Virus record (IMG/VR): IMGVR_UViG_3300035688_000056
Location: 1-28,387 of that record
Length of the DNA: 28,387 bases
DNA from: a virus
Direction: 5' to 3' (one strand)
The number at the start of each line of letters is the position of its first letter. Positions within the stretch are counted from its first letter, which is position 1. The notes beneath the pieces were generated by a model. That model made no database searches and had not been told where the DNA came from. It was given only the letters and a program-made list of their open reading frames with translations. Shown piece by piece: positions 5,322-23,962 of the stretch. Both the position numbers and the translations under genes were made by a program.

Positions 5322-5332
5322 GGAGGTGATCC
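5322..5332 (+). promoter_or_regulatory. Extended Shine-Dalgarno sequence of the capsid gene
   Basis: The 11-base sequence GGAGGTGATCC is fully complementary to the conserved 3' end of bacterial 16S rRNA (GGATCACCTCC), longer than the usual four to six bases. Few other genes in this window have any Shine-Dalgarno sequence. The GTG start follows 13 bases after its end, and 19 bases after GGAGG, which is longer than the usual spacing. The 9-mer CACTTGGAG at its start recurs at 21391-21399 before the adaptor gene. Confidence 0.65.
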
Positions 5333-5345
5333 GCCAAAAAATACA

Positions 5346-6519
5346 GTGGCAGAGGATAAGATTCTTCGAACTTACGGCGATGTGTCGATTGAGAAACTTC
5401 TTTAGTCGACAAAAAATTGGGTGAATTCGGGGAAACCCTATAAGGGTAATCCCGAGCCAAGCCAAAGATACATCTTTGGAAGGTGTAGAGACTACTGGAG
5501 AGGTTTAGTCCTCTTAATAACCAGAATAAGCGCCCAATATATTTGACTCTTTTACAATTATCAAAGAAAAAATAAAGAGCAAATATAAAGATATAGTCCG
5601 ATACTCTTAGTAATAAGAGAAAACATAATGTAAAGAAGATGTAGTGTTGAATGCGATTGAGATTTTGACAAGCAAAGAGACTCAAATCTTCAATATGCTT
5701 GGTAAGACCAACGCTATCAGCACAGTTCACATTTACTTGACCGATATTCTCGCCACCGCAGCTTCGGCTGCAGTCGCAGAGACTGGAGATTATAGTGCTG
5801 GAACGCTCACTACTCCTGCTCGATTGACTAATATTGTGGAACATGTGGCCAGACCTTTCAAAGTTGGTCGCATTACCCAAGCTGTCGAGCATTATCAGGG
5901 AGAGAATGAGTTGGAAAGACAAACCAGAAAGGAATTAGCGAATTGGGGGAACAGTGCCGAATTCGACCTTGTCAGGTCAACCCTGACTTCAGGCGCTTCG
6001 GGAACTACTCCCAAAATGGATGGTATTATAAACTCCATCTCCAAATACGCTTCGAACTGCATCTCGGTCTACAACTCAGGCACTACTTGGGACGATTCAA
6101 TTCTTGATGGGTTGATGAAGCTCAATTTCGACAACTCCAACGGAGAAGTGGCTACTGACCTCTTTATGGGTTCATTCCTTAGGAAGGTTACAGATGAATG
6201 GACTCAGAAGTCAAATGTCGTAGTCAACAATCCAGGAGGCCAGACAATGATTGTCAAAACAGTTTCTACTTATGAAACTGCATTCGGAACATTGAGAATT
6301 CACACCCACAGATACGTCCAGCAATCAACTGATGCGACAGGCAGAGTCATGGGTCTTAGACCCGATAAAATGAAAATCGCCCTCCTTCAAAAGCCATACA
6401 TCGACACCGACTTGGCAAGATCAGGTGCATACGACTTCCGTGCAGTCGTTGGGTCATTCACCCTCGAAATGCATAATGCACCCTCTTGTTTCTTCGCAAG
6501 CGGCTTCGACATAGACTAA
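5346..6519 (+). CDS. Major capsid protein (SU10/DUF5309-like), gene split by a group I intron
   Basis: The coding sequence joins 5346-5389 and 5631-6519, giving 310 residues. Exon 1 starts at GTG and encodes MAEDKILRTYGDVS plus two bases of the next Ile codon; exon 2 supplies the third base and reads on as KEDVVLNAIEILTS. Removing exactly 241 bases restores the frame. Unspliced, exon 1 stops at TAG 5403. Exon 2 has the marks of the SU10 major capsid family: the early ETQIFNMLGKT segment, HVARPFKVGRITQAVEHYQG, a helical ELERQTRKELANWGNSAEFDLV, and a C-terminal beta-rich half. The product forms the icosahedral shell. The frame alone can be miscalled as starting at GTG 5644, which would lose the first 20 residues. 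The stop codon lies in a hairpin loop. Confidence 0.88.
5390..5630 (+). ncRNA. Self-splicing group I intron in the capsid gene (241 nt, no endonuclease)
   Basis: The whole fold can be drawn. P1 pairs 5383-5390 with 5404-5411; the last exon base U5389 forms the conserved U-G wobble with G5405. P10 pairs 5397-5404 with exon-2 bases 5631-5638, eight perfect pairs. P3: 5417-5423 with 5531-5537. P4: 5426-5431 with 5451-5456. P5: 5435-5439 with 5443-5447. P6a: 5462-5468 with 5473-5479. P7: 5490-5494 with 5594-5598. P7.1/P7.2-type stems: 5495-5498 with 5521-5524 and 5499-5503 with 5510-5514. P8: 5547-5552 with 5574-5579. P9: 5604-5609 with 5614-5619, closed by a GTAA loop. The terminal G is 5630. 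The core strings CCCGAGCCAAGCC and GATATAGTCC are group I signatures, and extra stems after P7 suggest subgroup IA. There is no open reading frame inside. Confidence 0.93.
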
Positions 6520-7152: not shown

Positions 7153-7352
7153 ACAGAGAAGAGAAGCGAGGGCTATACGAAAGAAAAAGGAAAAAGAAGT
7201 TTGACTATTTAAAGCATACTAATCAAATGCAGAAATACCTTCATAGAAAAGAGCCAAAAAAGATAGCTGAAGCTATAATAACAACCGAGCCGATAAAAGT
7301 TATTAAGCCAAATTGGGCAACTAAAATTTGGAGACTAATAAAACAAAAATGA
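7149..7352 (+). CDS. Hypothetical very basic protein (67 aa)
   Basis: A 67-residue protein dominated by Lys and Arg (REEKRGLYERKRKKKFDYLKHTNQ...). It begins in an ATGA overlap with the previous gene and ends in an ATGA overlap with the glycosyltransferase (TGA 7350-7352, ATG 7349). The charge suggests nucleic-acid contact or disorder; no family is recognised. Confidence 0.55.
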   Translation: MNREEKRGLYERKRKKKFDYLKHTNQMQKYLHRKEPKKIAEAIITTEPIKVIKPNWATKIWRLIKQK

Positions 7353-9754
7353 AACCAAAAATAAAAATAGCCCTTTGTTTGATAGTCAAGGGTTCAGATG
7401 AGGAAGCGGTTCTTTTAAACAGATGTCTTGGCCACGAGTGCCATTTTATAGACGCAGGAGGAATCTTTGTCACCTTAACCCAGGAGAATGAAAAAGTAAG
7501 GGAGGTGGCGAAGTCTTATGGAGCCAATATTTCTTTCTACCAATGGGATGATGATTACGCCAAAGTCAGGAATTTCAATTTCTCCCAAGTTCCAAAGAAA
7601 TTCACCCATGTTCTTTGGATGGATGTAGATGATGTGTTCCGGGGTCTGGGAGAGCTTGATAAAATAGTGGTTGATCATCCAGAGACCGATGCTTTCTTGA
7701 TGAATTATCTTTACTGGTTCGATGAGAATAAGAATCCGGTAACAGTCCACACTAAAATCCAAGTTCTTAAGAATGATGGCTGTTTAGTCTGGAAGGGACA
7801 GATACACGAAGATTTGATGGCAACTAGGATTATTAAAAGCAAGATGATTGAAAATATAGAGAGGATTCACTTATCGAGCGATGAGAGACTGAAAGAGTCA
7901 AGGGAAAGAAATCTAAGGATAGCGGAGAAACAGGTCAAAGAAGATCCGACTGACCCGAGAACCTGGTGGAATTTAGGAAGAGCACAGGTGGCAATGGCCA
8001 TAGATGAATCAGTCAACACTTTGGAAAAGTTCATTTCATTAACAAGGTCAGATGACGATAAATATTTAGCGAGACTGGGAATAGGGGATTACTGGTTTGT
8101 CAGGGGAGAATACGGCAAGGCTTTGGATAATGTCAGGTATGCCATAGGTTTAAAACCTGAATATCCTGATGCTTACACCAGGGCCGGCCATATTTATTTT
8201 GAGATGAGAAACTTTGACAAGGCAAGAGATTTCTATTTACTGGGGCTGACTAAAAAACCTCCAATCTACACAATACTGGTTTATAATCCCAGAGATTATG
8301 ACTACACTCCTTTAATGGCTTTAGCCAAGACCTATTTTAAATTATCATTGCCTTCTTTAGCTCTGACATGCTTGAAGGGTTGTATGGAGATTCTGCCAGG
8401 GGACAAGAAATTAAAGGACTTGATAAAAATGATGGAAAAAGAAAGCAAGAAATTTGACCGCGTAGTCAATCATTTGAAAAATCTTCAGGAGATAAAGGAC
8501 ATTGACAAATTAAAAGAAGAGATGGATAAGTTGCCTGATGAGGTGAGATCTCATCCTGCTGTTTGCCACTTAAGGAATGTCAACTTCATCAAAAAGACTT
8601 CAACTGGAAAAGACTTGGTTTTCTACTGCAGCTACACTTCTGAAGAATGGACTCCTGAAACCGCAATAGAAAAGGGTATCGGAGGTTCTGAAAGAGCAGT
8701 TATAAATTTAACCAAGATTCTTCATCAGCAATATGGCTGGAATGTAACAGTCTATAATAACTGTGGATACAAGGAACTGGAATTTGAGGGAGTGAAATAC
8801 AAACCTTTCTGGTCTTGGAACTACAGGGATAAGCAGGATGTGGTGATTCTTTGGAGACATCCCAAACCCTGCGACTATGAAATCAATGCTCCCAAAGTCT
8901 ATATTGATTTGCATGATGTGGTAGGAGAAGGGGAATTCAACGAATCAAGAATGAAAAGGATAGAAAAGATTTTAGTGAAGTCAAAAGCCCAGAGAGATTT
9001 GTTTCCTAAACTACCAGATGATAAATTCTTAATAATTCCAAACGGAGTTGATTTAGAACAATTCAATTTAACAGTGGAGAGAGATCCTTATTACTTAATA
9101 AACCTTTCTTCTCCTGACAGGTCTTTGAATGCCATTTTGGATTTACTGCCCCAGATTTTAGAAAGAGTGCCAGAAGAAATAGCCAAGAAAGTGAAGTTTG
9201 GCTGGTATTATGGCTGGCAGGTATTTGATGCTTCTTTGTCTTCAGAAAAGGAACAGGAATGGAAAAGAAGCGTTATAGATAAATTCGAGAAGTTAAAGAA
9301 ATTAGGAGTAGCCCAGGGAGGCGGAAGGATAAGCCATCTTCAGATTCCGATAGAACTATTGAAAGCCGGCGCCTTGATTTACCCAACCCACTTTTACGAA
9401 ATTGATTATTTAGGGGGAACCGAAGCCCAGATAGCAGGTTGCGTTCCTATCACCACTGACTTCGCTGCTTTGGACGAGAAAATCCAGTTCGGGGTGAAGA
9501 TTCCTTCTGGAAGAACTCGGGAAAACTGGTCACAGGTGGAGATATGCGACTTTGGAATTAAAGACGAAAAATCAAGAGAGATGTTTGTAAAAGCAGTGGC
9601 AGATTATTTGAAGAACCCTAATAAGTTTGACAGGGAGAAAATGTCAAAATGGGCAAAGGAAAAATACGACATCAAGAAAATCGCTAGCCTCTGGAATGAG
9701 GAATTATCAAAACCTAAATTATTTAAAGCCCATGTCAAAATCATCAAGCCTTAG
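7349..9754 (+). CDS. Double glycosyltransferase with TPR-like repeats (GT2 + TPR + GT4-like)
   Basis: I chose ATG 7349, coupled by ATGA to the preceding gene, rather than an upstream in-frame ATG at 7328; this gives 801 residues. Residues 1-165 form a GT2-like nucleotide-sugar transferase domain: strand KIALCLIVKG, the metal-binding DVDD at 92-95, and WKGQIHED near 148-155. Residues about 195-355 carry TPR-like helical repeats (TWWNLGRAQVAMA, GDYWFVRGEYGKALDN, AYTRAGHIYFEMRNFDKARD). From about 420 to the end is a GT4-type GT-B domain: GIGGSERAV (443-451), PNGVD (564-568) and, near 690, GGTEAQIAGCVPITTD. Such fusions build or decorate surface glycans. Both active sites look intact. It may glycosylate virion proteins or alter the host envelope. 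Confidence 0.85.
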   Translation: MKPKIKIALCLIVKGSDEEAVLLNRCLGHECHFIDAGGIFVTLTQENEKVREVAKSYGANISFYQWDDDYAKVRNFNFSQVPKKFTHVLWMDVDDVFRGLGELDKIVVDHPETDAFLMNYLYWFDENKNPVTVHTKIQVLKNDGCLVWKGQIHEDLMATRIIKSKMIENIERIHLSSDERLKESRERNLRIAEKQVKEDPTDPRTWWNLGRAQVAMAIDESVNTLEKFISLTRSDDDKYLARLGIGDYWFVRGEYGKALDNVRYAIGLKPEYPDAYTRAGHIYFEMRNFDKARDFYLLGLTKKPPIYTILVYNPRDYDYTPLMALAKTYFKLSLPSLALTCLKGCMEILPGDKKLKDLIKMMEKESKKFDRVVNHLKNLQEIKDIDKLKEEMDKLPDEVRSHPAVCHLRNVNFIKKTSTGKDLVFYCSYTSEEWTPETAIEKGIGGSERAVINLTKILHQQYGWNVTVYNNCGYKELEFEGVKYKPFWSWNYRDKQDVVILWRHPKPCDYEINAPKVYIDLHDVVGEGEFNESRMKRIEKILVKSKAQRDLFPKLPDDKFLIIPNGVDLEQFNLTVERDPYYLINLSSPDRSLNAILDLLPQILERVPEEIAKKVKFGWYYGWQVFDASLSSEKEQEWKRSVIDKFEKLKKLGVAQGGGRISHLQIPIELLKAGALIYPTHFYEIDYLGGTEAQIAGCVPITTDFAALDEKIQFGVKIPSGRTRENWSQVEICDFGIKDEKSREMFVKAVADYLKNPNKFDREKMSKWAKEKYDIKKIASLWNEELSKPKLFKAHVKIIKP

Positions 9755-15309: not shown

Positions 15310-15737
15310 TGTCTCAATTAGAATCCTTTTTAAAAGAGATAAAGGATTTAAATTATGTAGTTCAGAGAAATTGGGAATTATTGCCCGAAGGTTTTGTTGA
15401 AGGACACGAAGATTTGGATTTATTCACTACTGAGAAAGACAAACCAAAACTTTTAGAAATCGCCAAAAAATACCCTGAAATAAAAATTGACATCCGTTCC
15501 TATTCCGACTGGTATTATCCTCCAAACATAGGGACTCAGCTTTTAACAAACAGGGTGCTGGAAAAAGATTTATTTTGGATTCCTAATGACTTCGCCCATT
15601 TTATTTCTTTGTATTATCATGACTGGGTTCACAAGGGTGGAGGCTATTATACAGAAAAACTAAGAGATATTTTCATAAAAATTTATACTCCTACCAAATG
15701 CAAAGATGAAGGAGTAGGATTCTATGGTCCTCATTGA
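15309..15737 (+). CDS. Nucleotidyltransferase-fold protein
   Basis: A 142-residue protein with VVQRNWELLPEGFVEGHEDLDLFTT at residues about 17-41. The G-H-E-D-L-D string fits the hG-x-x-DxD catalytic signature of the nucleotidyltransferase superfamily, which uses two Asp residues to bind metal. A C-terminal region (NDFAHFISLYYHDWVHKGG) contains His and Asp but no motif I can name. Proteins of this kind occur in surface-polysaccharide loci beside glycosyltransferases. It overlaps the next gene by 14 bases and opens the glycan cassette. Substrate unknown. Confidence 0.55.
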   Translation: MSQLESFLKEIKDLNYVVQRNWELLPEGFVEGHEDLDLFTTEKDKPKLLEIAKKYPEIKIDIRSYSDWYYPPNIGTQLLTNRVLEKDLFWIPNDFAHFISLYYHDWVHKGGGYYTEKLRDIFIKIYTPTKCKDEGVGFYGPH

Positions 15738-16359
15738 TGTTCGCACTCCGAAAACATTTGAAGAATATGTCGCCAATTTGAGCAAAAAAGGGAAACGGGC
15801 TTGGCGTTTCGTTAAAAACAATAAAGAGAACCAAAATTTAATTTATCAGAGAGTTCCTTACAATCGGGAAGAGGTGAAGCAATTTATGGAGCTATGGGAG
15901 CGCCAGTTGATCAGGGGGAAGTATATGCAGTGGGCATTCACAATAGATTATCCCGAGAAATTAGAAAGGTTGAGAAAATTGATGTGCTTTGCCTGCTTCA
16001 AGGGACAGGAAAAAATAGCCCTTCATTTCGTGGAAAACCATCTGGGTTATGTGGAATGCCATCCGGTGATGTATGACAAAACCAAGTATCTGGGAATAGG
16101 ATTGGCGAAATTCATGTGGTTTCACTTGGTTAAATATGCGATAGAAGACAAAAAAATAGACTGGCTGGATTTAGGAGGAGGGATTGAAGACAACTGGCAG
16201 GAGGCAATAAAAAGAAGGCATGAGTTCCCGACTTGTTTTTACAAATGGACTTATGTTTCAAGGGAAGTTAAAAGGCATCCGGAAAAACAGCCGAAATTAA
16301 GACTCTATCTTCCTCAGGGAAAACTCGGGGATATCAAGGTTCTACAAAAAATCGAATGA
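15724..16359 (+). CDS. FemAB/GNAT-like acyltransferase
   Basis: A 211-residue protein with the features of a GNAT-type acyl transfer domain of the FemAB/BioF2 kind (Acetyltransf_6). The basic N-terminus NLSKKGKRAWRFVKNN leads to a region with MCFACFKGQEKIALHFV. The best match is KYLGIGLAKFMWFHLVKYAIEDKKIDWLDLGGG, about residues 119-151, the helix-turn-strand near the acyl donor site. FemAB-type enzymes add amino acids or acyl groups to cell-wall or polysaccharide precursors. Overlaps of 14 and 4 bases with its neighbours suggest coupled translation. Only one FemAB/GNAT domain is present. Confidence 0.6.
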   Translation: MVLIDVRTPKTFEEYVANLSKKGKRAWRFVKNNKENQNLIYQRVPYNREEVKQFMELWERQLIRGKYMQWAFTIDYPEKLERLRKLMCFACFKGQEKIALHFVENHLGYVECHPVMYDKTKYLGIGLAKFMWFHLVKYAIEDKKIDWLDLGGGIEDNWQEAIKRRHEFPTCFYKWTYVSREVKRHPEKQPKLRLYLPQGKLGDIKVLQKIE

Positions 16360-17156
16360 CAAAATATTTTATTGCCATTAAAAAACGAAGCCAAGACTTG
16401 TTTGATTTATCAGGATTAAAAAGATTTGAAACTCCAGTCGGGCAATATGAAGCCGATCCCTTTCTTTTAAACCATGAAGGAAAAGATTATTTGTTTTATG
16501 AATTATGGGATTACAAAAAAGGCAGGATAGCTTTTTCAGAAATCAGGGATTTGGAAATCTCTAAGCCGGAAATAGTTTTGGAACAATCATATCATCTTTC
16601 TTACCCGATGATTTTCAGGGAAGAAAACGAGATTTATATGATTCCCGAATCCGGAATGGGAAGAAACATCCAGCTTTACAGAGCCAGAGAATTTCCAAAA
16701 AAATGGGAATTGGCGAATATAATATGGGATGACGGGGATTTCGCCGATTCAACCATAATTCGTTATAAAAACAAATGGTGGCTCTTTACAATAGCGGGGA
16801 ATGACAACAATCTGGTCATTCTGAAATCAGATTCCTTAAGAGGCGGATGGGAGAAAGTATTTGAAAAATACATTGAGCCATCAAGAGGAGCAGGAAATAT
16901 CTTTGAATACGAAGGGAAATTGATCAGGCCGGTTCAGTATCAGGAAAATGGAATCTACGGCCGGGGGATTGCTTTTAAGGAAATCACCCTGCCCGACTAT
17001 ACTGAAAAGGAATTTAAAAGAATCAGGCCTGACTGGTATCCAAACCTCGTGGGAACGCACACCTTCAATGCCAACGAGAATTATGTAGTCTTAGACGGGA
17101 AATTAAAAAAAAGTATCAATGTAATGATATTGAGAATATTCAACCTGCTTGTATAA
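16356..17156 (+). CDS. Five-bladed beta-propeller protein, glycan-locus type (GIPC transferase N-domain-like)
   Basis: A 266-residue protein built of repeated blades: QYEADPFLLNHEGKDYLFYELW, KKGRIAFSEI, SYPMIFREENEIYMIPE, FADSTIIRYKNKWWLFT and GAGNIFEYEGKLIRPVQ. The ADPFLxxxxGxxYLFFE pattern matches the glucosamine inositolphosphorylceramide transferase N-terminal propeller as found in bacterial polysaccharide clusters, where it probably binds or modifies sugars. The last 15 residues or so (INVMILRIFNLLV) look alien: in another frame the same DNA encodes the remains of an HNH endonuclease. The true end of the gene has probably been replaced. Confidence 0.65.
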   Translation: MTKYFIAIKKRSQDLFDLSGLKRFETPVGQYEADPFLLNHEGKDYLFYELWDYKKGRIAFSEIRDLEISKPEIVLEQSYHLSYPMIFREENEIYMIPESGMGRNIQLYRAREFPKKWELANIIWDDGDFADSTIIRYKNKWWLFTIAGNDNNLVILKSDSLRGGWEKVFEKYIEPSRGAGNIFEYEGKLIRPVQYQENGIYGRGIAFKEITLPDYTEKEFKRIRPDWYPNLVGTHTFNANENYVVLDGKLKKSINVMILRIFNLLV

Positions 17157-17215
17157 GTTGTAATACAAGAAAAAAAGATAAATTATGGAGAAAAATAAAG
17201 ATAAAAAAGAAATAG
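17114..17215 (+). pseudogene. Remnant of an HNH homing endonuclease (C-terminal part only)
   Basis: The frame from 17114 reads YQCNDIENIQPACISCNTRK and continues KDKLWRKIK to a TAG at 17213-17215. The NIQPACISCN-x3-KDK string is the typical end of an HNH nuclease motif, in which a zinc-binding or structural CxxC is followed by Asn and basic residues. No start codon, catalytic His or upstream HNH part is present. The piece is out of frame with the propeller gene before it and overlaps the cytidylyltransferase gene after it. It appears to be the 3' end of a free-standing HNH gene whose 5' part was deleted. Confidence 0.6.
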
Positions 17216-17619
17216 TAGTTGCTGTGAGTGGGGGGATGGACCCCCTGCATATCGGACACATCAGATATTTGAAAGAAGCCAAGAAATTGGGAGATAAATT
17301 AGTTGTGATTTTGAATTCGGATAACTTTCTAATTAAGAAAAAGGGCTTTGTTTTTATGCCATACAAGGAACGGAAAGAGATATTGGAAAATATTAAGTAT
17401 GTAGACGAGGTATTTGATTGCGTGGATATAGACCAGTCGGTATGCAAATCTTTAGCCCAATTAAAACCTGACATTTTTGCTAAGGGTGGTGATAAGACTA
17501 TATCCAACATATTAGAGGGTAAGGTATGCGAAGACTTGGGAATAAAAATAGTATTCGGAGTAGGAGGAGAAAAAATACAATCAAGTGGTTGGTTGGTTAA
17601 TAAATTAAGAAACCGATGA
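17185..17619 (+). CDS. Cytidylyltransferase-like protein (TagD/RfaE type)
   Basis: A 144-residue protein that joins a phosphorylated sugar or alcohol to CMP or AMP. The signature is GGMDPLHIGH, with HxGH at residues 22-25; KGGD follows at about 100-103, and GGEKIQSSGWLV (128-138) takes the place of the ISTS loop. Length and motifs fit TagD (glycerol-3-phosphate cytidylyltransferase) or the RfaE adenylyltransferase domain. It would supply an activated precursor for the glycan made by this cassette. The start lies within the HNH remnant and lacks a clear Shine-Dalgarno sequence; ATG 17185 is the earliest good start. It ends with a four-base overlap of the next gene. Exact substrate unknown. Confidence 0.75.
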   Translation: MEKNKDKKEIVVAVSGGMDPLHIGHIRYLKEAKKLGDKLVVILNSDNFLIKKKGFVFMPYKERKEILENIKYVDEVFDCVDIDQSVCKSLAQLKPDIFAKGGDKTISNILEGKVCEDLGIKIVFGVGGEKIQSSGWLVNKLRNR

Positions 17620-18206
17620 AAAGACTTTTTATTCCGTTAGGTAAAATACAAATTTATGACGAATTCCATCGCCTTCAACCAGATGGCAACTTTGAGGTAG
17701 ATTTTAAAAAAGACGGCAAATCAACTGAAGAGCATAGGCAGGGAATTGAATATATAAAATCAGTTCTTAAAAAGGGAAAGAAAATAAGGCCGATTCTTGT
17801 GGTAGACAATGAAGATGGAACTTTCTTTCTTTTGGACGGATTTAAAAGAAGCATTGCCTATAAGGAATTGAATTATAAAAATGTAGAAGCTTTTGTTTGC
17901 GATAGATTAGAATATTTCATCCGCCGGGATAATCCTGAAGAGACTATTCCTTATGATGTAGGGAAAATGTGGGCCGGAAAAGGGGGACAGCCAAAAGAAG
18001 TCTATTCTTTATTTGAGGGAAAGCAAACTGAAGGCGAATTTAAATATGATGACCTAATTTTTCTTTATAAATCAGAAAACCCAGCAGGCCTGAGAATTGA
18101 AATAGATGAGAATATACATATACATTGGGGAGAGTTCGGAAAAAACAGACTAGCTTTAGGCCGGAAAGATTTTATCCAATTAGCTGAGGCAATCTCAAAA
18201 ATATAA
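17616..18206 (+). CDS. ParB/sulfiredoxin-like domain protein
   Basis: A 196-residue protein. Residues about 55-95 (IRPILVVDNEDGTFFLLDGFKRSIAYKELNYKNVEAFV) follow the ParB/Srx pattern: P-I-x-V, then LLDGFKRxxAY, then a strand VxAFV. In place of the usual DGHHR there is DGFKR. The C-terminal half ends with IHIHWGEFGKNRLALGRKDFIQLAEAIS, a beta-hairpin and helix also found, in similar form, in the next gene. ParB-fold proteins bind CTP and can act as nucleases or kinases. In glycan loci they may bind or modify sugar nucleotides. Neither is shown here. Confidence 0.55.
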   Translation: MKRLFIPLGKIQIYDEFHRLQPDGNFEVDFKKDGKSTEEHRQGIEYIKSVLKKGKKIRPILVVDNEDGTFFLLDGFKRSIAYKELNYKNVEAFVCDRLEYFIRRDNPEETIPYDVGKMWAGKGGQPKEVYSLFEGKQTEGEFKYDDLIFLYKSENPAGLRIEIDENIHIHWGEFGKNRLALGRKDFIQLAEAISKI

Positions 18207-18433
18207 TGGGAATATTTAAAAAAATAATTGAAGATCGCTTGATTTCTCCGATTCCTGACAGAAACTCAAACAGGATTTATATTTACCGGAAACCGAATAA
18301 TGAAGTTTCAATCTGGTTCAGGAACTTAAAGATTACGCTTTTAAGCGAAGAAGAAATTCAAGAATGGAAAGAAGGATTTAAAATAGCATTAGAAAATTTT
18401 AAAAAAGGCAATTATTTTCAAAATGACATATGA
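18206..18433 (+). CDS. Hypothetical protein sharing a C-terminal module with the ParB-like gene (75 aa)
   Basis: A 75-residue protein that starts on the last base of the previous gene and overlaps the next by four. Its second half (RIYIYRKPNNEVSIWFRNLKITLLSEEEIQEWKEGFKIAL) has the same strand-strand-helix plan as the C-terminus of the ParB-like protein before it: V/I-x-I-x-W, then L-x-L, then a helix with E-x-F. It may be a duplicated or split module. No other family is recognised. Confidence 0.5.
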   Translation: MGIFKKIIEDRLISPIPDRNSNRIYIYRKPNNEVSIWFRNLKITLLSEEEIQEWKEGFKIALENFKKGNYFQNDI

Positions 18434-19032
18434 CTCCTAATGAATACTTGGAATCAAAAATAGAAGAACTTTCAAAAAAGTTTCCGCCTGAAATAGTCTT
18501 CTTGGAAATAGGGACATCAAAGGGAACTTCAGCTATAAGATTTCTCACTGGCATCAACAAAAGCGGATTGAAAAGATGGTTCTTTTCAATCGACCCTTAC
18601 GGCAACAAACCTTACAGGGTGACAGGAGAAGTCAGGACTGAAACTAATTATGGCGAGGAATGGTATAGGAAAGCAATGGCTATGCTGAATAATTATGCCC
18701 TTGAGAACGAATTACTATACTGCCATTGGCGCATGCTTGACACTGATTTTATGGAGTTCTTTCCGAAAATGGAATTCTGGCATAAAGCCAAAAGAATGAA
18801 GGATATTCAATATGGCTTTGTTTATCTTGACGGAGAGCATATCGAGGAATCAGTGCTTAATGAGTTTGAATGGTTTTATGAAAGGATGCCCATGGGAGGG
18901 ATGATTGTGATTGATGACATCAATTTTCTCGGGATGGAAGAGGGAGTAAAAGAGTTGCTCAAAGATTTCGAGGGTGAAATGGAATTCAGACACCAAGAAG
19001 AAAATCATAGGGTTTATTTCACAAAAAAATGA
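18430..19032 (+). CDS. Class I SAM-dependent methyltransferase (Methyltransf_24-like)
   Basis: A 200-residue methyltransferase. Motif I for SAM binding is FLEIGTSKGTS, residues about 24-34. SIDPYGN (about 53-59) is motif II and its acidic residue. GFVYLDGEHIEESVLNEFEWF with D and H at about 135-145 is motif IV, followed by GGMIVIDDIN. This is the layout of the Methyltransf_24 / cephalosporin-hydroxylase-like group, which often modifies sugars or secondary metabolites. ATG 18430 overlaps the preceding stop by four bases. It overlaps the next gene by four. A second methyltransferase of the same group is at 19979. Confidence 0.75.
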   Translation: MTPNEYLESKIEELSKKFPPEIVFLEIGTSKGTSAIRFLTGINKSGLKRWFFSIDPYGNKPYRVTGEVRTETNYGEEWYRKAMAMLNNYALENELLYCHWRMLDTDFMEFFPKMEFWHKAKRMKDIQYGFVYLDGEHIEESVLNEFEWFYERMPMGGMIVIDDINFLGMEEGVKELLKDFEGEMEFRHQEENHRVYFTKK

Positions 19033-19985
19033 AAATTGTCATTGCCAATGATTGGTATAGCGACAAGCAAGGCCACTATACCAATAAAGACGGATTTTTA
19101 AGATGTCTTGATATTTTCCAGAGAGATTATAAATGGGAAGTGATTTTTATTAAAAAGAGTTCGCCTGGATATTTCCAGCATCCCTATGTCCTTTTCAAGT
19201 ATGTTGAAGATGTAAAATCAGAAATTCTAAACCAGAAACCAGACTGTATCTTGTTGTTCTCTGACTTATCCCGTCCTTTGTTGGGAGAATTGCGAGGATG
19301 TGGAATACCGATTGCCCAAGCTTTCACTGGCGGAGCTTATGACAAGTTTGAGGATGTTCCTGATATAATTTTCGTTGAATCGCAGGTTTATTATGACAGA
19401 TTTAAAGCTCACGGCCGGAATGTAGTCAAAGCTTTTGGGACAAATACGGAAGTATTTAAACCAATGCCTCAACCCAAGATATTTGATGCCTGTCAAACTT
19501 GCACTTTTGCTGGATGGAAGCGTCATGAATTATTCGCTGAAGCACTAGGAGGAGGAAAATATAAAGCATTAGCTTGTGGGTGGTGGCAACCCCATGAACC
19601 ACAATGTTGGCAAATTTGTCAAGAAAAAGGGATTGTTTTACTTCATCATCAAAATGCAGAATCAGTCAATCTTATTTACAATATGAGTCGGACTTGCGTC
19701 TTGACCGCTGATAATTCTGGTGGTTCACAAAGGAGTGTTTTAGAGGCAATGGCAGTTGGAATTCCACCGATAGTAATGTCAGATAATGATAAAACTACTG
19801 AATTCGTTAGAGAATCAGGTTTTGGAAAAATAGTTCTACCAGAACCTTCAGCTATTAGAAACGCAGTCGATGAACTAATTAAAAGTCCTCCTGATTCCCA
19901 AATTGGAATAAATTATATCAAATCTAAATATACTGAACATCATTACGCGGAAAAATTAAAAAAGGGAATCGAAAGCATATGTTAG
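19029..19985 (+). CDS. Glycosyltransferase, GT-B fold (GT4-like)
   Basis: A 318-residue glycosyltransferase with a GT-B layout. The N-terminal half has IVIANDWYSDKQGHY and DCILLFSDLSRPLLG. The C-terminal donor-binding half has NSGGSQRSVLEAMAVGIPPIVMSD, about residues 234-257, with the Glu-x7-type donor segment, then FGKIVLPEPSAIRNAVDELI. The short length suggests a compact enzyme. It sits between two methyltransferases, overlapping both by a few bases. The sugars and acceptor are unknown; the context points to one glycan made by the whole cassette. Confidence 0.75.
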   Translation: MKIVIANDWYSDKQGHYTNKDGFLRCLDIFQRDYKWEVIFIKKSSPGYFQHPYVLFKYVEDVKSEILNQKPDCILLFSDLSRPLLGELRGCGIPIAQAFTGGAYDKFEDVPDIIFVESQVYYDRFKAHGRNVVKAFGTNTEVFKPMPQPKIFDACQTCTFAGWKRHELFAEALGGGKYKALACGWWQPHEPQCWQICQEKGIVLLHHQNAESVNLIYNMSRTCVLTADNSGGSQRSVLEAMAVGIPPIVMSDNDKTTEFVRESGFGKIVLPEPSAIRNAVDELIKSPPDSQIGINYIKSKYTEHHYAEKLKKGIESIC

Positions 19986-20533
19986 AATTTAAAGAAAAAA
20001 TAGATGCCTTGCCCCAAGATAATTCGGCCCACGAAGGACAAAAACTAATATTATATGCTTTTATAAGATCAATGAAGCCGGAAAAGGTTGTAGAAATAGG
20101 AACGCATATCGGAGTAACCGCTTTGTATTTAGCCCACGCTCTTTTTGACAATAAAAAAGGCCATCTCTGGACTTGCGATCCTTATGATTACAAGCAGGAA
20201 GAAACTTTTAATAAATTCCCAGAGCTGAAAGAATACATAACTTTTGAAAAGAAAAAAGGGCAAGACCTGAATATAGACAAAATAGATTTTCTTTTCATTG
20301 ATGGCTTCCACGAAAAGGATTATGTTTTAGCTGAAATAAAAGCGTTGTTCCCTCGCCTGACTAAAGAGGCAGTAGTTTTCTTTCACGATGCCGGCGGAGA
20401 CAATGCCTATGTAGGAGTTAATGAGGCAATCAGGGAAGCAGGATTAAAAACATTGATGATTGCAGGTGAAGGGAAAATGCGATTATATTGCAATTATGAA
20501 AATTTCTATTTTGACACCATCAATCCGAAGTGA
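19979..20533 (+). CDS. Class I SAM-dependent methyltransferase
   Basis: A 184-residue methyltransferase. Motif I is VVEIGTHIGVTAL (about 37-49), preceded by HEGQKLILYAFI. The acidic TCDPYD segment (about 64-69) is motif II. FLFIDGFHEKDYVLAEI (about 101-117) is motif IV, followed by VVFFHDAGGDNAYVGVNEAI. This resembles the methyltransferase at 18430, so the two may be diverged copies. It overlaps the next gene by 38 bases. The likely role is O-methylation of a sugar in the cassette's glycan. Confidence 0.75.
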   Translation: MLEFKEKIDALPQDNSAHEGQKLILYAFIRSMKPEKVVEIGTHIGVTALYLAHALFDNKKGHLWTCDPYDYKQEETFNKFPELKEYITFEKKKGQDLNIDKIDFLFIDGFHEKDYVLAEIKALFPRLTKEAVVFFHDAGGDNAYVGVNEAIREAGLKTLMIAGEGKMRLYCNYENFYFDTINPK

Positions 20534-21137
20534 AGGATTAAAAGTAGTTCAAGAAAGTTTGGAAAAACAAACCTTTCAGGACTTTGAATGGTTGGTTGAA
20601 ATGGGGATTGTTTCTCACGGATGCGATTTAAGCAAAGCCTGGAACAGAATGTTAAAAAGAGCCAAAGGAGAATGGATCGTATTGCTTGAAGATTATATAA
20701 AAATTCCACCTGATGGATTGGAGAGATTTTTAAAAGTGGCTGATCCAAAAAAACTTTTTACCGGCGCTGTTGGAAAAACGCTGGATTGGAAAAGCATCAA
20801 ATGGGATTGGCGGAATTTCGGGGAATCAAGGGAGGTAGATTTCAGACACTGGGAAATAGACTGGGCTTTCGGGCCTTTGCAGGCTTTTAAAGATGTCGGC
20901 GGATTCGAGGAAGAGTATGATGAATTTTGGTCAAGCGAAAATGTAGAAATTGCTTACAGGATGAGTAGATTGGGATATAAGTTCTTGGTGCTACCTGATA
21001 ACAAAGGAATACAATGGGCGCATGACGAAATTATTAAGCATCCATTTCGTCATAAATTTTCCCCTCATTTTCATAATGCCAGATTAAAAGATATAGAAAT
21101 GGGATTAAAACCAGTAAAGCTTAATTATCTGGATTGA
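20496..21137 (+). CDS. Glycosyltransferase family 2
   Basis: I chose ATG 20496 over an in-frame start at 20460: MKISILTPSIRSEGL is a typical GT2 N-terminus, giving 213 residues. The next pieces are QTFQDFEWLVEM, GEWIVLLEDY with the acidic pair at about 67-68 in the metal-binding position, and FGPLQAFKDVGGFEEEYDEFWSSENVEIAYRMSRLGY (about 125-161), the acceptor-side ED and GGF-x-E motifs common in GT2. It overlaps the methyltransferase before it by 38 bases and closes the cassette. The gene-free regulatory region starts right behind it. Confidence 0.8.
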   Translation: MKISILTPSIRSEGLKVVQESLEKQTFQDFEWLVEMGIVSHGCDLSKAWNRMLKRAKGEWIVLLEDYIKIPPDGLERFLKVADPKKLFTGAVGKTLDWKSIKWDWRNFGESREVDFRHWEIDWAFGPLQAFKDVGGFEEEYDEFWSSENVEIAYRMSRLGYKFLVLPDNKGIQWAHDEIIKHPFRHKFSPHFHNARLKDIEMGLKPVKLNYLD

Positions 21138-21413: not shown

Positions 21414-21441
21414 TTACTAACTACCCTTATGGGGTTAGTAA
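21414..21441 (+). promoter_or_regulatory. Hairpin or palindrome across the adaptor start codon
   Basis: TTACTAAC (21414-21421) pairs with GTTAGTAA (21434-21441), and CCC (21424-21426) with GGG (21431-21433), leaving the loop TTAT. The ATG (21429-21431) is thus at the tip of the stem. As RNA it could hide the start codon; as DNA the near-palindrome could be a protein-binding site. The nearest Shine-Dalgarno-like GGAG is at 21396-21399, about 29 bases before the ATG. Confidence 0.5.
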
Positions 21442-22097
21442 GATATTTTACTAAAACAGAGAGCACAAAATTTACTGATGCCAATATCAAGGCACTTTTG
21501 AATCTTTATTATCACGAGTTTGTAAATGAGATTCTAAAATCGGGGAGCGATATTGATTTTAATATGGCTACCGAATCCATAAACCTTACCAATGGAACTG
21601 CTGTCTATTCGATAACTGGAAAAGTATTAAGAATAAAAAAGATTGATATATCTTTCGATGGATCTAAGTGGTATAGTGCCACTAATTTTGATATCGCAGA
21701 AAGATCCAGGCCATTAGATACTACTTCTATCGCTGCTGATTTTACAAAAACTAATCCATTCATAGATTTATATTTAGATAATGAAACAGTAAAAATAGCA
21801 ATCTATCCAACCCCTGACGCGAATGTAACAGCAGGATTAAAAGTTTGGAAAACCTTAGAAATTACAGAATTATCAGCTCAAGGTGACGAACCCTCGATTC
21901 CAGAAGCATATCAAAAATATCTTGTCTATGGAGCATGTAGAGATTACTTCTTGAAAAAAGAAATGTTCACTAAAGCCACAGAAATGGAGAAGGAAATGTT
22001 CAAAACTCTTCAAAGAGCCATATCTTTTTATGCCAATAGAAACGAAGAGGAAAGATTCCTTTTGGAAGACGGCTATGGTAATAATTTTTGTAAATGA
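21429..22097 (+). CDS. Head-tail adaptor-like protein
   Basis: A 222-residue protein. The first 60 residues are helical (FTDANIKALLNLYYHEFVNEIL). A beta-rich middle (ESINLTNGTAVYSITGKVLRIKKIDISFDG, then VKIAIYPTPDANVTAGLKVWK) follows. The C-terminal helices include PEAYQKYLVYGACRDYFLKKEMFTKATEMEKEMFKTLQRAI. This strand block followed by a Y-x-YL-x-YGA helix is common in podovirus-type head-tail adaptors (P22 gp4 or SU10 adaptor-like). It would bind beneath the portal, and its gene overlaps the portal gene by ATGA. The ATG lies in a hairpin, so the start is not certain. Confidence 0.6.
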   Translation: MGLVRYFTKTESTKFTDANIKALLNLYYHEFVNEILKSGSDIDFNMATESINLTNGTAVYSITGKVLRIKKIDISFDGSKWYSATNFDIAERSRPLDTTSIAADFTKTNPFIDLYLDNETVKIAIYPTPDANVTAGLKVWKTLEITELSAQGDEPSIPEAYQKYLVYGACRDYFLKKEMFTKATEMEKEMFKTLQRAISFYANRNEEERFLLEDGYGNNFCK

Positions 22098-23962
22098 ATA
22101 AATTCAAAACTATGGCAGAAGAAAACAAAATCGAAGTAGATATAGAAAATGAAATAATCGAAACAATGAAAAGGGAAAAGCGGGCTTGGGAAGACGAGAT
22201 AGTTTTTGTCACTGACAAAATCGCTTTCAGGATGAGAAACCTTATCAAGACCTGCCGTAAGAATTACTGGGGGATTTTTGACGACCCTTATGACCCGGTA
22301 ACAGGAAGAGAAATGGTCTGGCCTCCCTTAACCCAGTGGCTGACCGAATCGGTCATCAAAAACTGCGATGTAGACAGCAAGGATTTTAATTTCAGAGCCA
22401 AAGTTTTGAGGGCCTTAGGCCTTGTGCCTTTGGTAAGGAATGTAGTCAGGAATTGGATGGATGAAAATTTCTTTGGCGAAGATTTAGACGAAGCAGGCCG
22501 GCAGATGGCCATAGATGGAACTGAAATCTGGAAGACCTGGGAAGAAGACGGAGAGATGAGAAGGGAATCTGTTGACAGGTTGAACTTTTATATCGACCCG
22601 AATGCCAAAAGCATTCAGGATACCCCGGCAGTTATAGAAAGAGCGGTTATCTCAATAGCAGATTTCAATTCGATGGATTCTTGGTGGAAAAAAGATGAGG
22701 TAAAAGTGAGAAAGGGGTTGCATCCCACTGACGAAAATCTTCAAGCAGAGATGATTTCTGAAACTGAAGGAATCGAAGTCTGGGAGAGATGGGGTTTGAT
22801 GCCGAAATCCTGGCTGACCGGGAAGAAGTCAGATGCCAAAAAAAGAATTGAAGGCCATATCGTTGTTTCTAATTTAGTGTATAGCCCTATTGTTCACTTT
22901 GTGGAAGAAAACTTGAAAAAAGACAGCACAGGCAAAATCGTCAAGCCTTACGAGGAAGGAAGATTAAGAAGGGTGAGGGGCAGATGGGATGGAGTCGGAG
23001 TTCCGGAAATGGTGATGGGGCTCCAGATTTGGCTGAATGTTGTTGTCAATATAAGGATTTCCAGAGGCAGGATTTCCCAATTAGGCATTTTCAAAATAAA
23101 AAGAGGAGCGAACATCACTCCCCAGATGGTGAAAAAACTAGCTGCCAACGGCGCTATTCTGGTTGACAATATGGAGGACATCCAGCAAGTGGTGATTGAT
23201 GAAGCTTCAGAAGCCAGCTACAAAGACGAAGAAGTAATAACCAACTGGGCGCAGAGAGTGACTCAGGCTTATGAGGCAGTGACAGGAGAGCCATTGCCTT
23301 CCACTATGCCAGCTACCACTGCAGCTATTCAAACTAAATTTGCCCAATCAGCTTTTGTCCTTATCAGGGAAGGAATGGGAATGTTCATTCAAAGATGGTT
23401 GAAACGCCACGCTTGGCCGATCCTCCAAAAGAATCTTACTAAAGGCAAGATAGCTTTAATCACAGGCTCTTTCGAAGAGATGAGGCAATTAGACGCTAAA
23501 TTTGTTTATTATCTGGCTGCCAAAAAATTGGATGAGATGAATAAAAGCAAGCAAATAGTTGATCCTTTGCAGGTCAATCGGGAAATTTTGGGAGCGATGG
23601 AAAAACTAATGAAGATAGGTAATGACAGGTTTGTCAATATCTTAAAAAAGGTCAACCTGCTTGATTTCGATGTTCAGTTCTATATGACCAACGAAGAGGC
23701 GGATAAGAGCGTTATCGCCAAAGACCTTATATCTTTAGGCCAGATGGCTCCCCAGTATGCGGATATAATCGTTAAGATGGTGATGGATTTGATGGGCTTT
23801 GATGTCAACCAGTTTGAAGAACTGAAAAAATCTTTAATAACAACATCCCAAGTGAAAGCCCCCCAACAAATGAAAGGCGCATCAACGCTTAATCCGGCCG
23901 GAGGAGGACAAGTTGCTGGAGGGCAGACAGCAATGAAAATTTTAGAAGAAGCTAACACTTAA
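22094..23962 (+). CDS. Portal protein (podovirus type)
   Basis: A 622-residue protein starting in an ATGA overlap; ATG 22112 (MAEENKIE) is the alternative start. The N-terminal part (KRAWEDEIVFVTDKIAFRMRNLIKTCRKNYWGIFDDPYDPVTGREMVWPPLT) and the middle (GLQIWLNVVVNIRISRGRISQLGIFKIKRGANITPQMVKKLAANGAILVDNMEDIQQVV) match the large portals of SU10/P22-like phages: an N-terminal wing, a Trp-rich stem region, and a helical C-terminus that forms the inner barrel. The portal is the twelve-fold ring at the capsid vertex through which DNA is packed. Its size and motifs are full length. It lies 18 kb from the terminase. Confidence 0.88.
   Translation: MNKFKTMAEENKIEVDIENEIIETMKREKRAWEDEIVFVTDKIAFRMRNLIKTCRKNYWGIFDDPYDPVTGREMVWPPLTQWLTESVIKNCDVDSKDFNFRAKVLRALGLVPLVRNVVRNWMDENFFGEDLDEAGRQMAIDGTEIWKTWEEDGEMRRESVDRLNFYIDPNAKSIQDTPAVIERAVISIADFNSMDSWWKKDEVKVRKGLHPTDENLQAEMISETEGIEVWERWGLMPKSWLTGKKSDAKKRIEGHIVVSNLVYSPIVHFVEENLKKDSTGKIVKPYEEGRLRRVRGRWDGVGVPEMVMGLQIWLNVVVNIRISRGRISQLGIFKIKRGANITPQMVKKLAANGAILVDNMEDIQQVVIDEASEASYKDEEVITNWAQRVTQAYEAVTGEPLPSTMPATTAAIQTKFAQSAFVLIREGMGMFIQRWLKRHAWPILQKNLTKGKIALITGSFEEMRQLDAKFVYYLAAKKLDEMNKSKQIVDPLQVNREILGAMEKLMKIGNDRFVNILKKVNLLDFDVQFYMTNEEADKSVIAKDLISLGQMAPQYADIIVKMVMDLMGFDVNQFEELKKSLITTSQVKAPQQMKGASTLNPAGGGQVAGGQTAMKILEEANT

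Follow-up and report, generated by a model that had tools for sequence, protein, structure and literature searches.

Where does the major capsid protein of this uncultured phage begin? In the window, by which we mean the whole 28,387-nucleotide stretch analysed (IMG/VR virus record IMGVR_UViG_3300035688_000056), mechanical ORF finding places the start of the capsid gene at GTG 5644, as a sequence-only reading of the DNA had foreseen. That reading had proposed that an unannotated group I intron splits an SU10-type capsid gene, and both parts of the proposal were upheld. We put at about 95% the probability that this is a self-splicing group I intron without a homing endonuclease gene, whether lost or never present, a judgement made from sequence. 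The features of the locus are as follows.

5346..5389, plus strand: exon 1 of the major capsid protein gene, with a GTG start, 14 whole codons and the AT of codon 15
5384..5410, plus strand: P1 helix, 5384-5389 with the internal guide 5405-5410 and U5389.G5405 at the 5' splice site
5390..5630, plus strand: group I intron of 241 nt with no ORF of note, ending in omega-G 5630 (RF00028 match, fold z score, P1/P10 junction)
5397..5404, plus strand: P10 guide, which pairs over 8 bp with 5631-5638 of exon 2 (CTTCTTTA / TAAAGAAG)
5403..5405, plus strand: in-frame TAG that ends translation of an unspliced message just past exon 1 (translation VAEDKILRTYGDVSIEKLL, then stop)
5631..6519, plus strand: exon 2 of the major capsid protein gene (SU10_MCP; PF17236 at 6.6e-40, phrog_1328 major head protein at 4.4e-29)

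Exon 2 belongs to the SU10-type family, with a PF17236 score of 137.9 bits against a cut-off of 24.1. As its alignment taken alone begins at profile position 16, with the first 15 positions absent, the ORF that starts at GTG 5644 lacks the N-terminus of the protein.

A covariance search of the whole window (Rfam cmscan), the check that the sequence-only reading had called for, gave one RNA-family match above threshold. This was RF00028 at 5363-5620, which covered the full model (1-253) with 89.2 bits (gathering score 50) and an E value of 8.1e-22, and in which the model recognised the conserved core, P3-P8 and P4-P6. When 5383-5638 was folded without constraints, the minimum free energy was -71.9 kcal/mol compared with -43.6 +/- 4.5 for dinucleotide shuffles (z -6.3), and the fold contained P1, P3, P4, P5, P6, P6a, P8 and P9. 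P7 is a pseudoknot that both the Rfam model and the fold tool leave unpaired, and its GACUA/UAGUC pairing was read by eye; the strands AGACUA and AUAGUC align at the conserved RF00028 positions, as expected of a guanosine-binding site. The pairings that had been proposed for the splice sites also held when read base by base. In P1, G5384-U5389 pairs with G5405-C5410 (6 bp, with a seventh pair possible), which sets U5389, the last base of exon 1, in the U.G wobble characteristic of group I introns. In P10, CTTCTTTA at 5397-5404 is perfectly complementary to TAAAGAAG at 5631-5638, and the last intron base, G5630, is the terminal omega-G. Extra helices P7.1/P7.2 between the 5' strand of P7 and the 3' strand of P3 mark subgroup IA; the window intron has a 34-nt insert at this place, with CUGG/CCAG and AGAGG/CCUCU pairings seen by eye. 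The intron is 35% G+C, compared with 39% for the window.

Excision of the 241 bases joins 5346-5389 to 5631-6519 in frame, as claimed, to give a 310-residue product that begins MAEDKILRTYGDVSIKEDVVLNAIEIL... and whose predicted RNA joint is GTGTCGAT followed by TAAAGAAG. Exon 1 is translated as MAEDKILRTYGDVS-I, residues that are continuous with those of exon 2 in intron-free relatives, and excision thus restores an uninterrupted homologous protein. These relatives came from IMG/VR searches with the capsid protein or with alignments, which gave 158 loci and about 68 distinct capsid DNA sequences; a scan of genome contigs gave no encoded relative of the capsid protein. The intron-free IMG/VR relatives encode the same N-terminal stretch unbroken. 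Its motif was present in 65 of the 66 distinct loci checked, several of which have introns elsewhere in the gene, and the locus without it (L112) still gave a contiguous full-length match. Solved SU10-type capsid chains start aligning at residue 21 (7z45) or 31 (9ny2). A GGAGG at 5322-5326 lies about 19 nt upstream of GTG 5346, a spacing greater than that of the usual ribosome-binding site, which counts against this start. We consider it very improbable that the intron is inactive and that translation of the capsid protein begins internally at GTG 5644, with 5346-5643 a dead leftover. The choice of the ORF finder would fit such a start, but the core, P1 and P10 are intact, as are the two exon sequences, the 19 residues that would be missing are conserved in intron-free relatives, and selection would not keep an unused exon 1 readable. 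The corrected gene model returns to the capsid protein the 19 N-terminal residues that ORF callers drop.

Given an active intron, the capsid transcript would fold around P3-P8 and P4-P6, a guanosine would attack after U5389 in P1, and the freed exon 1 would then attack after G5630 with P10 as guide, the joined exons encoding the complete 310-residue protein. In an unspliced message TAG 5403 would halt ribosomes at the edge of the intron. Splicing, this role of the TAG and past mobility are what we infer.

The sequence-only reading had also seen that the intron has no homing endonuclease and had left two explanations, an endonuclease encoded elsewhere or lost mobility. No homing endonuclease family matched any ORF of the intron or any of the ~30 window ORFs scanned, and 5390-5630 therefore lacks the encoded endonuclease of a mobile intron. 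We sought introns in the relatives through breaks in the protein match and through RF00028, with sites numbered by the window protein. In the about 68 distinct related genes, the same capsid gene was interrupted at six other sites, by nine additional introns in all, each distinct.

Site 18/19, L038, 2674-2997: 324 nt, RF00028 71.2 bits, no HNH gene
Site 18/19, L126, 1738-2497: 760 nt, RF00028 75 bits, complete HNH_3 gene at 1787-2287
Codon 129, L052: 784 nt, RF00028 56 bits, 171-aa ORF that matches HNH weakly in PHROGs and shows, by eye, a LAGLIDADG-like motif
Site 145/146, L050, 2419-3000: 582 nt, HNH gene
Site 145/146, L051, 2375-3000: 626 nt, HNH gene, RF00028 28.7 bits (below the curated threshold)
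Site 145/146, L053, from about 3379: ends with the contig, truncated HNH-like ORF
Site 283/284, L028/L029: 761 nt, HNH (gene in L029)
Site 289/290, L001: 774 nt, HNH gene, RF00028 23.4 bits (below the curated threshold)
Codon 293, L073: 218 nt, no gene

The Rfam E-value mode overlooked introns split by endonuclease genes, which were recovered by protein-match breaks and reading by eye. RF00028 gave no match for L073, L050, L053 or L028/L029; these were assigned to group I on the strength of core motifs recognised by eye together with frame restoration (except L053, the 3' end of which is missing), with extra support from P1/P10 or P1 pairing for L050 and L073. The introns of the relatives resemble the window intron in gene family and group I core. 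In every one U ends exon 1, and G ends the intron wherever the 3' end lies within the record (L073 and L053 by reading), but the junctions were placed partly by the U/G rule and frame restoration, so that the U and G are not fully independent evidence. In L126 the P1 pairing with U.G at the chosen 5' site is poor, which makes the exact 5' junction less sure. The introns of the relatives differ from the window intron in their insertion sites and in that most carry HNH or putative homing endonuclease genes, L038 and L073 being those that do not. The 145/146 introns of three related phages differ in their HNH genes, and the core of L050 looks unlike that of L051.

The introns of L038 and L126 occupy the same site and are 86% identical across 155 nt of their 3' cores, with an HNH gene only in L126. 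No other case in the set shows as clearly that an intron here can exist with and without its endonuclease gene. The direction of change was probably endonuclease loss in L038; a Cys-rich 35-codon ORF in the L038 intron, which gave no Pfam match, may at a guess be a remnant of the enzyme. Because the introns in the same gene of relatives mostly carry endonuclease genes, and with L126/L038 as the model, the window intron is most likely a formerly mobile intron that has lost its endonuclease, and it is this side of the earlier alternative that the relatives favour. Its likeliest origin is the arrival of a mobile element like those that still occupy the capsid gene of relatives and carry endonuclease genes, and the intron would persist now because splicing renders it nearly harmless.

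None of the about 68 distinct related capsid genes has a second intron at the exact site of the window intron, a point that weakens the case for earlier mobility of this very intron. When IMG/VR was searched with a strict DNA pattern of the P4-P6 core, no near copy turned up, and therefore no close sister of the intron is known there. That the intron is real but mobile in trans, an endonuclease encoded elsewhere in the phage and outside the 28-kb record cutting intron-free alleles, seems unlikely to us. The record is a fragment without end repeats and phages commonly encode free-standing homing endonucleases (PMC2988022, PMC3706429), but the scanned ORFs of the window gave no such enzyme and recent spread would tend to have left the site shared.

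RF00028 was also run over the 78 whole records from which these loci come (about 1.5 Mb), and all five matches fell inside the capsid gene, which makes up ~5% of the sequence scanned (share computed for the first 58 records). The result is limited by the fragmentary state of the records, by the relatedness of L038 and L126 and by the chance that endonuclease-split introns elsewhere were missed. As the records were chosen for the capsid gene and not for introns, the concentration is not built in by selection. We lean toward the view that group I introns preferentially settle in the SU10-type capsid gene of this uncultured phage clade, with at least seven sites, repeated gain together with HNH-type endonucleases and repeated endonuclease loss. 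A possible reason is that an essential, conserved and heavily transcribed gene would always offer insertion sites and place splicing under strong selection. Recurrence in this one gene would also suit an intron kept as a regulator, its splicing coupled to ribosome traffic or growth state so as to set capsid output. The TAG lies inside P1, and T4 intron splicing is reported to need ongoing translation, as discussed in PMC11878797. However, sites, sizes and cores vary and most relatives are intron-free, a pattern that selfish elements fit better than conserved control, and we hold regulation to be improbable. What merits follow-up here is the recurrent invasion of a single capsid gene family. 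The family offers full-length endonuclease-bearing introns beside endonuclease-free ones, including the same-site pair L126/L038, and hence a natural series for testing gain and decay of homing introns where each particle requires many copies of the gene product.

Phage capsid genes with introns have been described before, and the window intron adds a member to this kind; the literature searched gave no account of introns in capsid genes of the SU10 type. In mycobacteriophage LittleE splicing of the major capsid gene was proven by RT-PCR and N-terminal sequencing, and the intron type was termed "most likely" group I (PMC3706429); the same paper also cites lactococcal phage Tuc2009. As in the window, the LittleE major capsid gene is split, exon 1 ends in U, the intron ends in G and intron-free relatives exist. 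The LittleE intron measures about 819 bp, has a LAGLIDADG-related gene on its opposite strand and lies in an HK97-type siphovirus capsid gene, whereas that of the window is 241 nt, has no endonuclease and lies in an SU10-type gene. Among the best DNA matches were introns of T7-like phage DNA polymerase genes (for example Escherichia phage MeretOppenheim_Bas102, PQ850620), with 84% identity over 36% of the window intron in core pieces only; the MeretOppenheim_Bas102 intron differs in its host gene, DNA polymerase, and in carrying an HNH gene. Small group I introns, averaging ~206 nt, occur in essential genes of the uncultured Jug phages, where 37 of 76 tested were supported by metatranscriptome RNA reads (PMC12363816). 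The examples given there are terL, nrdD and DNA polymerase, and the genomes are 360-402 kb. Judging by a title cited in PMC8541194, Streptococcus thermophilus phages offer a comparable case, an intron of the lysin gene that has deletion derivatives.

Most relatives have a portal-like gene directly upstream of the scaffold and capsid genes, whereas in the window the portal (22094-23962, a weak SU10_portal match) and adaptor (21429-22097) genes lie about 15 kb downstream, which reflects either altered gene order or a rearranged contig. Between the head and adaptor/portal genes, 7328-9754 and 15724-21137 hold a long series of glycosyltransferase, methyltransferase, cytidylyltransferase and GINT1_N-like genes, which is unusual amid a structural module. 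An ORF at 668-1159 has a DPPY motif resembling that of DNA adenine methyltransferases and gave no Pfam match. Finally, Pseudoalteromonas phage pYD6-A has at 2501-2687 (L165), between ORFs annotated only as hypothetical, an intron-like core matching that of the window intron, which may be a group I intron left without annotation in this deposited genome.
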